The notes beneath the pieces are model-generated. The model was given only the letters and a program-made list of their open reading frames with translations, made no database searches and had not been told where the DNA came from. Of a stretch of 39,826 nt of DNA, positions 7,760-25,025 are shown in pieces. The translations under genes were made by a program, and so were the position numbers. The DNA comes from Verrucomicrobiia bacterium (GTDB taxonomy: Bacteria > Verrucomicrobiota > Verrucomicrobiia > Limisphaerales > UBA1100), in contig JAAZZB010000004.1 in assembly GCA_014239365.1 (NCBI GenBank), forward strand, positions 1 to 39,826, written 5' to 3'. How positions within the stretch are numbered: the first letter of the stretch is position 1; every line of letters starts with the position of its first letter.

Positions 7760-8886
7760 TTTACACCGAGGATGCCGCGCAACGTTTCCGCCACGCGTTG
7801 CACTTGCTCTTGCGTGAGGTTCAGTGCCGACGGCAGGTTGATGCCCCACGGACTGAGACGATAACTCACCGCATTCCGCTTGCGCGCCACTGCCGCTTCC
7901 GCGTGCCCCTCGTATGCCGGCAAACTACTGAGCGGATGAAACATCGGCCGGCTGTCGATGCCTTCCACTTCGAGCGCCGCCATCAGTTTTTCCTTCGGCC
8001 ACTCCAGCATCGGATCAAGCACGGCGGTGACCATCCAAAATGTGTTCTTTGTATTGGCCGGTTCGTGATTCAAAGTGATGCCTTCCACGCCCGCCAATGC
8101 TTCGCGATACCATTCAAAAATTTCCCGCTTGCGGGAAACTAATTCCTCCGCGCGCTCCACCTGCGCCAAACCAATCGCCGCGGCCACCGGCGGCATTTTG
8201 TATTTGAACGCGACTTCCGTGTTGTTGAAATGCACGTCACCCGGCTCGCGGCCGTGGTCGCGCAATTGCATCACGCGCGCGTGCAATGCGTCGTCATCAG
8301 TCACAAGCATTCCGCCCTCGCCGGTGGTGAACGTTTTGGAACCGTGAAAACTAAACGCCGCCACATCGCCCAACGCACCCGCCTTGCGTCCGTCAAATTC
8401 GCTGCCGATGGCCTCGGCGGCATCTTCGATTATTTTTAAGCCGTGTTCATCCGCAATCGCCCGCAGCGCGGCATAATCCGAAATGCCGCCGTACAAATCC
8501 ACCGTCAAAATCGCCTTCGTGTTTTCGGTAATGCACGCACGCACGCTCTCGGCGCAAACGCACCATGTGTTTTCATCCACATCAGCAAACACCGCCGTGG
8601 CGCCGACATATGAAATCGGCGCGGCGCTGGCAATCCACGTGAGGTCCGGCACAATCACTTCATCGCCCGGCCCAACGCCAGCTGCCGCCAACGCGAGGTG
8701 CAACCCCGAAGTGCACGAGGGCAAACTCACCGCGTGCTTCACTCCAATGTAGTTGGCAAAAGCGGCCTCAAAGCGGCGCGGATATTCGCCCGCGCGATCA
8801 TACCAACCATTCGTCGCTGCGTCGGTGGCGTAATCGATCTCCCGCTGCGTGATGCTCGGACCGGCGATGGGGATGCGATCGCTCAT
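7756..8886 (-). CDS. DegT/DnrJ/EryC1-family sugar aminotransferase
   Basis: A 376-residue PLP enzyme of the family that transaminates keto groups of nucleotide sugars, usually at C3 or C4 with glutamate as donor. The Schiff-base lysine is K184 in SFHGSKTFTTGEGGM, the cofactor-nitrogen-binding acid is D155 in IIEDAAEA, and the phosphate-binding segment is SCTSGLHLAL (57-66). Other family marks are PDLTWIASAAPISYVGA and NTKNTFWM. The start at 8886 shares one base with the upstream stop (TAATG) and avoids a five-codon extension. With GNAT and WbqC genes two or three positions upstream, the product is probably an N-acylated amino sugar branch of the glycan. The exact sugar cannot be told from sequence; the CDP-sugar made by rfbFG is one candidate substrate. 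Confidence 0.92.
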   Translation of the reverse strand: MSDRIPIAGPSITQREIDYATDAATNGWYDRAGEYPRRFEAAFANYIGVKHAVSLPSCTSGLHLALAAAGVGPGDEVIVPDLTWIASAAPISYVGATAVFADVDENTWCVCAESVRACITENTKAILTVDLYGGISDYAALRAIADEHGLKIIEDAAEAIGSEFDGRKAGALGDVAAFSFHGSKTFTTGEGGMLVTDDDALHARVMQLRDHGREPGDVHFNNTEVAFKYKMPPVAAAIGLAQVERAEELVSRKREIFEWYREALAGVEGITLNHEPANTKNTFWMVTAVLDPMLEWPKEKLMAALEVEGIDSRPMFHPLSSLPAYEGHAEAAVARKRNAVSYRLSPWGINLPSALNLTQEQVQRVAETLRGILGVK

Positions 8887-20980: not shown

Positions 20981-21065
20981 GCGCGAGTGGCGGAATTGGT
21001 AGACGCGCCGGATTTAGGTTCCGGTCTCGCAAGGGGTGGAGGTTCGAGTCCTCTCTCGCGTACCA
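20981..21065 (+). tRNA. tRNA-Leu (anticodon UAG)
   Basis: An 85-nt class II tRNA with encoded CCA (21063-21065). Acceptor strands GCGCGAG and CTCGCGT pair over seven positions with a G-U at position 1. The D arm carries GGCGGAATTGGTAGAC, the anticodon stem is CCGGA/TCCGG with loop TTTAGGT, giving anticodon UAG for CUN leucine codons. A variable arm (GTCTCGCAAGGGGT region) precedes the T arm GGAGG-TTCGAGT-CCTCT. All four helices and the variable arm needed for leucine identity are present, and no intron is seen. Confidence 0.97.
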
Positions 21066-21183: not shown

Positions 21184-21969
21184 TTAATCCTTTGTGGCGA
21201 GGAGTTTTTTCAAAGCCGCTTCCATTTCGGAAACACTGAACCCACGCGGGCCGCGGCCGCCTTGAAAGGCGATGCGGGCATCGGGGCCGATGATGTACAG
21301 GCGGTCGGGAAACGCACTAAAAGCATTCATCACGGTGTTGTCGATATCATCCACCAACAGCGGGATGGTGAGCTTCAATCCGGCCGAACAAGCTGCGGCC
21401 ACTTCTTTGCGTGCGAGAAATGTTTTGGGTTGTTCAATCTGCACGTGGCGCGCGGGGCGGTTGGAATCACTAGCGTGCGCTTCGCGAATGTACACCCAAA
21501 CAAAGTCGGCTTGTTTGCCAAAAGTTTCGTATGCTTTTTGGAGACGCCCGGCCTCCCGCGAAAATGGGCCTCACGTGTATGAGCCGAACACCACCACGGT
21601 GTGGCGTTTGATTTTTGAAAATTCCAGCACGCGATCGCCGACCATAAACTTTGCGGAAACTTTTGGCGCAGCAGTCCCAACCTGCGCGTCCACTTGCGTA
21701 CCCCCTCGGCCCACCGGTCGCACGCCGTGACCTGTGTAGCGCATCCATTCCGCGGGCGTCACTTGGCCATCGGCCTGGGTGTCGGCTTTTTTGAAATCAG
21801 CAACCTGTAACAACGCAGCCCATTCCTTGGCGGAAATTTTCCGATCCGAATTTGCATCGAGTGCCCGAAATAATTCCTTTGCCGGACTGCCACCTTGTTG
21901 GTTCGGCTGTGCCGTCAGCAACGGCGACAAGCCCGCACTCAATACCAGTAAAATCACGATTGCACGCAT
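21184..21969 (-). CDS. Secreted EF-hand/iodothyronine-deiodinase-like selenoprotein (in-frame TGA at 21571-21573)
   Basis: Reading through TGA as selenocysteine gives 261 residues. Residues 1-20 are a signal peptide (MRAIVILLVLSAGLSPLLTA). Two EF-hand loops follow: D38-E49 (DANSDRKISAKE) and D63-E74 (DTQADGQVTPAE). From about residue 100 comes a thioredoxin-fold domain matching iodothyronine deiodinases: VVVFGSYT-Sec133-GPF at the active site, then VYIREAHASD (159-168; Glu163 and His165 match the conserved deiodinase Glu/His), and RLYIIGPDARIAFQGGRGP, GFSVSEMEAALKKLL at the end. The frame is unbroken except for the single TGA, at the exact position of catalytic Sec in animal deiodinases (GSCT-Sec-PPF). 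TGA is used as an ordinary stop by many genes here, so code reassignment is unlikely. The natural substrate is unknown; a thiol/selenol redox or reductive-dehalogenation role is inference. It is divergent from the CHAT gene. Annotation pipelines would split it at 21571. Confidence 0.87.
21540..21556 (-). promoter_or_regulatory. Putative bacterial SECIS hairpin
   Basis: On the minus-strand mRNA, bases +15 to +31 after the UGA form GGAGGC-CGGGC-GUCUCC: six pairs (one G-U) with a 5-nt loop. The loop starts 21 nt past the UGA and has G at its second position. Bacterial SECIS elements are short hairpins within the coding sequence, with the loop about 16-37 nt from the UGA and a G in the first two loop positions, so size, place and loop fit. 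It was folded by eye only. Confidence 0.6.
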
Positions 21970-22055: not shown

Positions 22056-25025
22056 ATGGGACGCAGCCGAACAACCTTCGTGTGCCTTTGGCTCGGGCTG
22101 TTGTGTTTTCCCTTCCCTTCCTCCGCCGCCACGCCTTTGGAACAGGCGCGCAAACTTTACGAAACGGGCGATCAACAGCTCGAGGATTACGAACTCAAAA
22201 AGGCACTCGCCTCTTACCAAAAAGCGCTGGCGCTTTATCAAAAAAACAAAGGCACGCCCGCCGACCAATCCCAAGCACTCATCCAAATCGCCGTGGTGCA
22301 CCGGGAAATGCAGGCTTATCCCAAAGCCCAAGCCGCGCTGAAGCGGGCCGAAGGATTGCTGGTTGCCAAGCCGAATCGCATTTTGGAAATCGATTTGCAT
22401 ATTGAAATCGAATGGGAACGCGGGCTCATCGAATACGAATCCGGCCGGTACGCAGCGGCGATGAAATTTTTCCAGAAAGCTGCTGAACTGGCCAAGCATC
22501 CCGGGGCGGATATGATGAACCGCATTCTGCTCATCACCGATGCCGCGATGGTGGAGCTTGAGGCCGGGCATTATCCACGCGCCAAGACGTGGCTCGATGA
22601 GGCCGGCGCGTTGCTCAAAAAGCATCCCGAACACACCGCCGAAGTGGAGAGCGAAATCGCCAACAACCTCGGCTTTTACTTTATGGACATCGGCCAATAC
22701 AAACTTGCCGAGGAAGCTTTTCTCAAGGCGCTCGATGGCTACCGCGAATACTATGGCCAACGCCATCCGCGCACCACCATTCCGCGCGCGAACCTTGCGG
22801 TGCTCTACGAGACGCTCGGCAATTTCAAAAAAGCCGAAACTCAGTTTAAGTTTAATCTCGAAATCAACACCCGCCGCATCGGGGCCGACCATTATCTCAC
22901 CGCCATCGATATGGCCAACCTCGCCCGCGTCCTGCAAGCCTCCGGAAAATTGGCTGAGGCCAAGCGCCTCTTTGTGCGATGCCTTGAGATCGACCGCAAA
23001 CAACTCGGCCCCAACCACCCCTACGTCATCGTGGACCTCAACAATCTCGCCCAGCTTTATCAGGAACTCGACGAACCCGCCGAAGCCGAAAAACTCCTGC
23101 TCGCCGCCGTGAAACTCATCGAGCAACGCAATGCCCCACCCGACGCCACCCACCTCGCCACACTCGACAACCTCGCCGCCAATCACGTCCTCAAGGATGA
23201 ATTGACAAAGGCCCGCGATTTATACGAGCAATCGCTCGCCCTCCACGCCCGCCTTCACACCGGCCACACCCTCGAGGCCACGCAGGTGATGCGCGAGCTG
23301 GCACTGTTGGAGCACGACCTCGGCAACCCCGCCCAAGCCCGCGAATGGGCCCGCAGCAAATGGGCCATCGAACGCCAGCTCACCGAGGAAGTGTTTTCGT
23401 TTTCTTCAGAAAAAGAGCACTTTGATTTTCTGGAGAAAACCGACCCACTGCACCCGCTCATCAACCTCGGCACCGGCGCGGATATTGCCGAGCTGGTGCT
23501 GCACCAAAAAGGCCGTGTGCTCGATTCCCTCGCCACCGCCCAGCGACAGGCGCGGTTGTCAGCGCAGCCGGATTTGAAGAAAACGATTGAGCAAATCGAG
23601 GCCGCCACCGCCCAGATCATTCGCCTGCAAATCCAGCGGGCGCTCGCCAAGGATGCCAAAACGCTGAAGCCGCTGGGGGTGCAGATTTTCAAACAGAAAC
23701 AAATCCTCAACGGATTGCAAAAGACGCTGGCCCGTCACACGCGGCAGGCGCGGACCGAATATCGCGTGGCAGATTTGCTGAAGGCTCTGCCGCCCGGAAC
23801 CACTTTGGTGGAATTTGTGCAGCACCAAACTTATCAGGGCCGCGATGCATTTGGCGAACAATGGCGCAGCCAATACAGCGCGCTGGTATTCACCGCCGGG
23901 CGTGCGCCGCGCTGGGTGCCGCTTCGGCGCGCGGCGGCGATTAATAAACTGGTTGAAACATATAATCCCGCCACGCCCAGCTCCAATGCCGATTATGAAA
24001 AAGTGCTGCGCCAACTTCACCGGCGCCTGCTTCAGCCGCTGCTCAATGGATTGCCGCCCACCACCGACACCCTCATCTTCGCCGCCGACGGCCAGTTGAA
24101 TTTTATTAACTTCGCCACCGTGATGACGCCGGACGGCAAGTTCCTCTGCGAAGATTATCAAGTGCTGCACATTGCCACCGGGCGTGACCTGCTGCAGCCC
24201 GTCCGCAAACCCGCCACCGACGCATTGGTGGCCTTTGCCAATCCGCAATTCAAGCCCGGCCAACCCGCCGCCAGCGGAACCACCCGCGCCGGCGACCTCC
24301 AATCGCTCGCCCTGCCGCCCTTGCCCGGCACGTTGCGCGAATCGGAATTCCTCCGCCAATCCGCCACCGACTGGAAGCTCAAGCCCCGCATCTTCACCGG
24401 CGCAGCCGCCACCGAAGCCCAACTGCACGCGGTACGTCAGCCGCACATTTTGCACCTCGCAACACACGGGTTTTTTGTGAGCGCCGCCAAAGTGAAAAAT
24501 ATAAACCCTTCCAAGGGAATTTCTAAAACCGGCGGACGCACGCGCTCCGGCGGCATCCTCCCAAAATCTCTCCTCAATAGCGGACTCGCCTTGGCCGGAG
24601 CCGACCGCACATTGACCGAATGGAAAGCCGGGCGCATTCCCAATACCACCACCGACGGCATCATCACCGCCGCCGAAATCAGCCTTTTGCAATTGGAGGA
24701 CAACTGGCTCACGGTGCTTTCCGCGTGCGAAACCGGAATGGGCCGAGTGCAATCCGGCGAAGGCGTGATGGGGCTGCGCCGGGCGTTTGTGCAGGCGGGT
24801 ACGCAAAATTTACTCTTCACCCTCTGGCCCATCTCGGACGCAGTGACGGCAAAAATAATGGAAGACTTTTATCAACGCGCCCTGCGCACGCGACACGCGC
24901 CCGGTTCATTGTGCGATACCCAGCGCGATTGGCTGGTGAAGCTGCGCGAATCCGAAGGCACCAAAGCCGCCGTGCAATTGGCGGGGCCCTTCGTGCTTAC
25001 TTTTCAGGGGCCGCCGGTGCCTTAG
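22056..25025 (+). CDS. Secreted TPR-CHAT domain protein (putative caspase-like protease)
   Basis: A 989-residue protein. Residues 1-25 form a signal peptide (RTTFVCLWLGLLCFPFPSSA). Tetratricopeptide repeats cover roughly 26-460, including Kinesin-light-chain-type units such as PLEQARKLYETGDQQL, DYELKKALASYQKALALYQ and HPYVIVDLNNLAQLYQEL. A coiled, charged linker follows to about 600. The C-terminal CHAT domain carries the catalytic pair H804 in LHLATHGFF and C891 in VLSACETGMG, both intact. CHAT proteins are caspase/separase-like peptidases often controlled by TPR partners or repeats. A signal peptide points to the periplasm or outside. The start at 22056 is chosen because the signal peptide begins there; a longer frame overlaps the divergent selenoprotein gene. 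The last 29 nt overlap the convergent gene at 24997. Target unknown. Confidence 0.92.
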   Translation: MGRSRTTFVCLWLGLLCFPFPSSAATPLEQARKLYETGDQQLEDYELKKALASYQKALALYQKNKGTPADQSQALIQIAVVHREMQAYPKAQAALKRAEGLLVAKPNRILEIDLHIEIEWERGLIEYESGRYAAAMKFFQKAAELAKHPGADMMNRILLITDAAMVELEAGHYPRAKTWLDEAGALLKKHPEHTAEVESEIANNLGFYFMDIGQYKLAEEAFLKALDGYREYYGQRHPRTTIPRANLAVLYETLGNFKKAETQFKFNLEINTRRIGADHYLTAIDMANLARVLQASGKLAEAKRLFVRCLEIDRKQLGPNHPYVIVDLNNLAQLYQELDEPAEAEKLLLAAVKLIEQRNAPPDATHLATLDNLAANHVLKDELTKARDLYEQSLALHARLHTGHTLEATQVMRELALLEHDLGNPAQAREWARSKWAIERQLTEEVFSFSSEKEHFDFLEKTDPLHPLINLGTGADIAELVLHQKGRVLDSLATAQRQARLSAQPDLKKTIEQIEAATAQIIRLQIQRALAKDAKTLKPLGVQIFKQKQILNGLQKTLARHTRQARTEYRVADLLKALPPGTTLVEFVQHQTYQGRDAFGEQWRSQYSALVFTAGRAPRWVPLRRAAAINKLVETYNPATPSSNADYEKVLRQLHRRLLQPLLNGLPPTTDTLIFAADGQLNFINFATVMTPDGKFLCEDYQVLHIATGRDLLQPVRKPATDALVAFANPQFKPGQPAASGTTRAGDLQSLALPPLPGTLRESEFLRQSATDWKLKPRIFTGAAATEAQLHAVRQPHILHLATHGFFVSAAKVKNINPSKGISKTGGRTRSGGILPKSLLNSGLALAGADRTLTEWKAGRIPNTTTDGIITAAEISLLQLEDNWLTVLSACETGMGRVQSGEGVMGLRRAFVQAGTQNLLFTLWPISDAVTAKIMEDFYQRALRTRHAPGSLCDTQRDWLVKLRESEGTKAAVQLAGPFVLTFQGPPVP

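Follow-up and report, generated by a model that had tools for sequence, protein, structure and literature searches.

The question raised by this locus is whether a deiodinase-like reading frame interrupted by a TGA is a selenoprotein gene and what its product may do. The frame lies in a window (the whole stretch of DNA analysed, 39,826 nucleotides) from a Verrucomicrobiia bacterium, whose genome is 3.3 Mb in size, is assembled in 89 contigs, and is 93.6% complete.

Gene and protein architecture

Translation with TGA read as U gives a single protein (Table 1), and the two contiguous minus-strand frames which the sequence-only reading had described as split solely by a TGA are indeed one gene with one internal TGA codon. 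The motifs FGSYT-U-GPF, VYIREAHASD, and QGGRGP follow in the order given there, and the start Met is common to same-genus relatives. In Pfam, the window protein scores 90.8 bits with T4_deiodinase (PF00837, cut-off 27), three EF-hand families also exceed their cut-offs, and the peroxiredoxin profile AhpC-TSA (PF00578) stays below its own (21 bits vs 26). A genome-wide search with PF00837 gave a match at G000:C80:21202-21687 (84.3 bits) spanning one TGA, while none of 14 control genomes gave a match. With its hydrophobic leader, a predicted export signal, the protein is likely located outside the inner membrane.

Table 1. Features of the deiodinase-like gene in the window
Feature	Positions	Strand	Basis or remark
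Deiodinase-like gene	21184..21969	(-)	261 aa through TGA, TAA stop
Hydrophobic leader, residues 1-20, predicted export signal	21910..21969	(-)	by eye
First EF-hand loop, D38-E49	21823..21858	(-)	EF-hand_1, _5, and _6 above cut-off; best stretch within 31-55
Second EF-hand loop, D63-E74	21748..21783	(-)	direct reading; EF-hand_5 gives two stretches
T4_deiodinase domain (PF00837)	21202..21687	(-)	profile match
In-frame TGA, predicted Sec codon, U133	21571..21573	(-)	TGA conserved in relatives
SECIS-like hairpin GAGGC-CGGGC-GUCUC, nt 19-33 from U of UGA	21541..21555	(-)	alignment
Helix 184-197, between strands 155-160 and 204-206	21379..21420	(-)	AlphaFold2 model
TGT, C194, the protein's one Cys codon; candidate for the resolving thiol	21388..21390	(-)	sequence

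Divergent from the deiodinase gene is a gene for a CHAT-domain protein with TPR repeats (22056-25025, plus strand), situated between it and a cyclase-like gene which in some relatives adjoins the deiodinase gene. The open reading frame at 23186-21969 (minus strand), ending on the deiodinase start, is taken as spurious since it is antisense to the CHAT/TPR gene. No shared functional partner gene was found in the neighbourhoods of 16 loci, with clusters present in at least three loci considered. A tRNA-Leu gene (tag; 20981-21065, plus strand) separates the deiodinase gene from a glycosyltransferase cluster.

Decoding of the internal TGA

The source genome carries the genes expected for decoding UGA as Sec. 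Contig C40 carries a cluster of tRNA-Sec with the anticodon tca (67.4 bits), selD (427.8 bits), selA (TIGR00474, 472.9 bits), and selB (328.6 bits), each above cut-off, so that selA, selB, selC, and selD, which the sequence-only reading had proposed to look for, are all present. A SelW-like gene with CAAU is located directly upstream of tRNA-Sec, the gene for FdhA (721.8 bits) contains a TGA (NCSRAUHAPTVAG), and so do two of the nine AhpC-TSA matches of the genome (PGUTKEAC and GGUTAQC). In all four genes the TGA stands at an expected Sec position, which in FdhA and the two AhpC-TSA matches is the usual Sec site of such proteins. Among the few families searched, five genes, the window gene included, are predicted Sec users. 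Within the sel cluster, a transglutaminase-like frame (L018, 7916-8854) was noticed by eye, with selA on one side and selB on the other.

TGA also serves as a stop: of 24 open reading frames of the window chosen by eye as probable genes, eight terminate with it. The sequence-only reading had denied TGA a sense meaning on the grounds of ATGA overlaps between neighbouring genes; of these one, at 19743-19740, was checked and stands, and the claim is further carried by the eight terminal TGA codons. That the source organism has reassigned TGA to an amino acid such as Trp is in our view hardly conceivable. It could be read from the W found at the Sec site of P0002, P0003, and P0116, presumably called with a TGA=W table, but besides the terminal TGA codons it is contradicted by the tRNA-Sec with the anticodon tca and by the homologues free of TGA, which have Cys at the site in 66 of 76 cases in a search seeded with the CxC protein L070 (one has W, the rest are without a clean motif) and in 120/120 of the EF-hand-type relatives listed (the best 120 of 2438).

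The TGA recurs among relatives. PF00837 matches at E 0.001 occur in 23 of 117 genomes (own included) and exceed the cut-off in 18, of which 17 have a copy with one internal TGA; in the eighteenth, G044, the gene is of the Cys form (GSCTCPPF), and selB is not found above cut-off. selB exceeds its cut-off in 45 of the 117 genomes, comprising 16 of the 17 TGA genomes vs 29 of the other 100, and the sole TGA genome without it, G019, is 50% complete. Within the family of the window, f1, selB accompanies the TGA gene in 14/15 genomes vs 2/5 without such a gene, both comparisons ignoring kinship among genomes. Phylum-wide, 5 of 387 genomes exceed the PF00837 cut-off, the window included, with a TGA copy in four of the five, and order-wide 20 of 320 do so. 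The three loci given by the named-genome scan correspond to G001-G003 and were counted once. L070 and L077 have Cys in place of the predicted Sec. A plasmid search gave one match, in Mycolicibacterium (32% over 44%). As the TGA is also present in relatives assembled separately, a lone sequencing error, i.e., TGC or TGT in place of TGA, which the sequence-only reading had named as fatal to its case, is excluded.

Several loci deserve separate mention. G009 carries three TGA-containing deiodinase genes (G009:C109:2742-3909, L059, L023, and L044; G009:C130, L060), of which two form a tandem and lack EF-hands. In L057 (G005) the EF-hand part upstream of the Sec codon at 8494 appears out of frame relative to relatives while the catalytic part is intact, owing to either an assembly error or a real frameshift. 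The deiodinase match of L073 and L076 (G356:C2:322086-322557) is split over two frames with a 14-base overlap, the first of which contains a TGA at the Sec site. P0033, P0035, P0039, and P0042 are named alkylhydroperoxidase or contain PF02627 in addition to a deiodinase match; in P0033 the Sec codon may have been missed, as this protein begins just past the expected Sec position.

The part of the gene beyond the TGA is under purifying constraint, and the decay of the downstream half in homologues which the sequence-only reading had named as a possible refutation is not seen. Over the 124-128 codons past the TGA, dN/dS is 0.06-0.13 for nine of 11 EF-hand-branch relatives and 0.19 for L069, while for L067 dS is too high to compute; as many dS values exceed 1.5, only four same-genus ratios (0.06-0.09) are firm. 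In all 11 relatives dN past the TGA is lower than in the preceding 45 codons and the identity is higher than in the preceding 45 residues (114/128 vs 35/45 with L056). Were the TGA a true stop in a pseudogene or truncated gene, the EF-hand half alone would be made, and gene callers do stop there, all nine aligned truncated homologues ending at GSYT. Such a truncation is very improbable in view of the low dN/dS past the TGA, the retention of the TGA at the same codon across families, the full Sec machinery and other TGA genes of the genome, and the co-occurrence of selB with the TGA gene. The earlier claim of a genuine selenoprotein rather than a pseudogene is upheld by the sel genes, the conserved TGA, and the constraint beyond it, and the window gene is almost certainly a selenoprotein gene, with Sec predicted at position 133.

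A candidate signal for Sec insertion is found in the alignment. Of the 21 Sec loci, 13 are in alignment A1 and six in A2, with L054 (identical there to L053) and L072, which has neither hairpin, left out. In the 13 sequences, nt 19-33 can form a hairpin GAGGC-CG[G/U]GC-GCCUC with 98.5% of 65 cells paired, as compared to 37-62% for slid versions, and its combined pairing and covariation score is reached by 7 of 500 shuffles. Pair 19-33 is G-C in nine, G-U in two, and C-G in two sequences; a double-sided change is seen in this one pair only, and 125 of 500 shuffles do as well. Without recourse to folding, codons +6 to +10, lying beneath the hairpin, also stand out: among 174 overlapping windows of five codons, their synonymous variation is the lowest (0.129 vs a median of 0.53) in a set of 13 rows, from which L058, L061, L066, and L070 had been dropped out of 17 and in which L053 and L054 are nearly alike. 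Folding of single sequences of the region gave no excess of stability over shuffles (z 0.00 to -0.53), and since the window region folded alone gave no signal, the SECIS assignment relies on the alignment. RNAalifold prefers to pair nt 2-6 with nt 29-33, a competing fold which uses part of the UGA and is broken in the two sequences with C-G at pair 19-33. L072 has no hairpin of the nt 19-33 kind, and the automatically chosen best hairpin differs in L069 and L044. For the six relatives lacking EF-hands a different hairpin is possible, at nt 14-31, with the loop GGU in five and GUC in one and 92.9% of 42 cells paired; covariation gives no signal for it (249 of 500 shuffles do as well). In form, the predicted hairpin of the window gene agrees with a bacterial SECIS, being situated just 3' of the UGA and having a G in a small apical loop, CGGGC.

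Active site and second thiol

By sequence, mouse Dio3 (8e-18) and Dio2 (1.1e-13) are the only PDB matches at E 0.001; they are also the best solved structures by fold, outscoring the listed peroxiredoxins, and the window protein can be assigned to the Dio fold. For the comparison of residues, 22 Sec rows were used, comprising 20 loci and two proteins whose TGA had been called as W, with L054 (a near copy) and L066 (N letters) left out. The 67 Cys rows comprise 65 of the 76 matches from the search seeded with L070, plus L070 and L077; only matches with C or W at the site passed the filter, and one identical pair (L070 and P0048) is included. Weak or partial PF00837 matches (e.g., L039, L042, L045, and L074) are outside the thiol count.

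The counterparts of Dio3 S167, T169, Y197, E200, and H202 are kept in 22/22 Sec rows and at least 65/67 Cys rows, and that of R275 in the window protein and 14/22 Sec rows. The window protein differs from Dio2 and Dio3 (9h48 and 4tr3) in having a leader and EF-hands in front, and in lacking equivalents of Dio3 C168, W207, H219, F258, and E259, replaced by Y, N, P, P, and D, respectively. The H219 column is occupied by P181, and the full proton relay of Dio3 is thus not present. Dio3 numbering follows PMC11592359 and PMC9141512 or counting along the PDB chain. In human DIO1 the H174Q variant is dead but H174A is active (PMC9141512), so that proton transfer is not necessarily blocked when this position holds an amino acid other than His. 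The proximal Cys two residues before Sec, present in DIO1 and DIO3 and replaced by Ala in Dio2, is absent from the window protein, which has Y131 there.

The only Cys of the window protein, C194, lies close to the C-terminal end of the model helix (Table 1). A Cys within three columns of it is found in 22/22 Sec rows (in the same column in 17, the next in four, and within three columns in one), none of which has Cys at -2. Among the CxC-type Cys rows, Cys at -2 is found in 65/67; P0117 has the helix Cys instead, and P0121 has neither. A very large Cys family of the EF-hand plus deiodinase build (P0117, P0124-P0242; 2438 matches) was found starting from P0117, a Cys protein with EF-hands. In the best 120 of the 2438 matches, which are closely alike, the helix Cys occurs in 120/120, the -2 position is never Cys (F in 119, V in one), and 117/120 have exactly two Cys in the domain. 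Several listed matches are annotated as deiodinase family protein, and the two scanned score 516 and 529 with NF038285; the members named by organism are planctomycetes. A simple rule by which Sec forms have the helix Cys and Cys forms have CxC is thus rejected, since a large Cys group has the helix Cys. In nearly all rows the putative second thiol would be placed in one of two locations, helix 3 or the -2 position. In the tree, 64 CxC rows form one clade (99/98), the Sec rows with P0117 and P0121 another which is not firm (93/86), and L077 stands beside it with weak support; as the thiol pattern follows the clades, it goes back to few events.

U133 and C194 probably form a redox pair, an estimate raised slightly because the helix Cys is present in 120/120 of the listed EF-hand-type relatives. 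Alternatively, though with a distinctly smaller chance, C194 is structural and an outside thiol directly reduces the oxidised Sec. The position of C194 near the C-terminal end of the helix and the shifting of the Cys column among the Sec rows are consistent with this, as is the distal Cys of human DIO1, also numbered 194 but at a different position, to which PMC9141512 ascribes no role in turnover. It is opposed by the retention of the helix Cys in 22/22 Sec rows and 120/120 listed Cys relatives, by C194 being the only Cys of the window protein, and by the absence from all these rows of the proximal Cys which DIO1 needs for reduction by glutathione (PMC9141512). A precedent for the pairing of U133 with C194 is provided by Tpx peroxiredoxins, whose resolving Cys likewise belongs to helix 3 within a thioredoxin-like fold (PMC5302317); unlike them, the window protein has the deiodinase motif and insertion and no peroxiredoxin motif.

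Relation to known proteins and possible function

The window gene is not of a new kind. A 2005 study of the Sargasso Sea (PMC1088965) and a 2008 study of GOS (PMC2398784) described deiodinase-like proteins with Sec or Cys and a bacterial SECIS, which bears out the earlier remark on marine metagenomes. These PF00837 proteins share with the window gene the domain, the in-frame UGA at the catalytic site, the SECIS downstream, and the existence of Cys homologues, while the window gene is in addition tied to a genome with its own sel genes. The fusion with EF-hands was reported from GOS in 2021 (PMC9402790), whose authors point to further conserved Cys with no evident function; its architecture is the same as that of the window protein, which has one EF-hand pair vs two in same-genus relatives. 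Reviews of 2022 (PMC9312934) and 2026 (PMC13188914) list the family, with UxxC where the window protein has UGPF. The available portions of the literature since 2005 give bacterial deiodinase-like selenoproteins no proven function, and the 2026 review calls their functions largely open. What is added here are the two places of the thiol, helix 3 or CxC. In a limited literature search no paper on the family in Verrucomicrobiota or on two thiol places was noticed, which is weak evidence.

The NCBIfam family NF038285 (deiodinase_rel), with named members in Aquisphaera, Paludisphaera, and Planctomyces, resembles the window protein in the EF-hands combined with a deiodinase domain, the helix Cys, and no Cys at -2, but has Cys at the Sec site in all of the listed members (the best 120 of 2438), where the window protein has predicted Sec. 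The window protein stays below its cut-off (165.3 bits vs 250), as does a fuller relative, P0002 (185.5).

On balance, this intact deiodinase-family gene, with its TGA predicted to be decoded as Sec by the organism's own tRNA-Sec, SelA, SelB, and SelD, is fairly likely to code for an exported redox enzyme. In the proposed mechanism, the selenolate of U133 would attack an electrophile and take a halogen (or oxygen) onto selenium, with the proton handled by a Dio-type network of S130, T132, Y160, E163, and H165. C194 of helix 3 would then close an Se-S bond with U133, to be reduced by an outside thiol, and the EF-hand segment would serve to bind calcium in the periplasm and to stabilise or regulate the enzyme there. 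A small halogenated aromatic compound rather than a peroxide is tentatively suggested as the substrate; thyroid hormone itself is very unlikely.

The protein might instead be a Sec-dependent peroxide or disulfide reductase, periplasmic and using the same Sec-Cys pair with no dehalogenation, whose likeness to deiodinases reflects ancestry only. This is a serious possibility, if somewhat short of an even chance, against which stand the higher scores of Dio2 and Dio3 over the listed peroxiredoxins and the Dio proton-relay residues kept in 22/22 Sec rows. The peroxiredoxin motif PxxxTxxC is also absent ahead of the Sec. Most likely is a redox enzyme with a Sec-Cys pair, located outside the inner membrane, with dehalogenation and peroxide reduction nearly even. 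In a bolder and rather improbable reading, the family branch has a helix-3 thiol instead of CxU, and its Sec form would be an exported calcium-regulated dehalogenase of natural iodinated or brominated phenols, a bacterial form of the chemistry later used by animals on thyroid hormone.

The window protein provides a compact test object: it has one Sec, one Cys, and a full sel set in its genome, about twenty Sec relatives have been aligned with it, and a large Cys family shares its build. Should the Sec-C194 pair prove to remove halogens, bacteria would offer a test of how thyroid-hormone chemistry arose; should it reduce peroxides, the fold would resemble a peroxidase later put to use for deiodination by animals.
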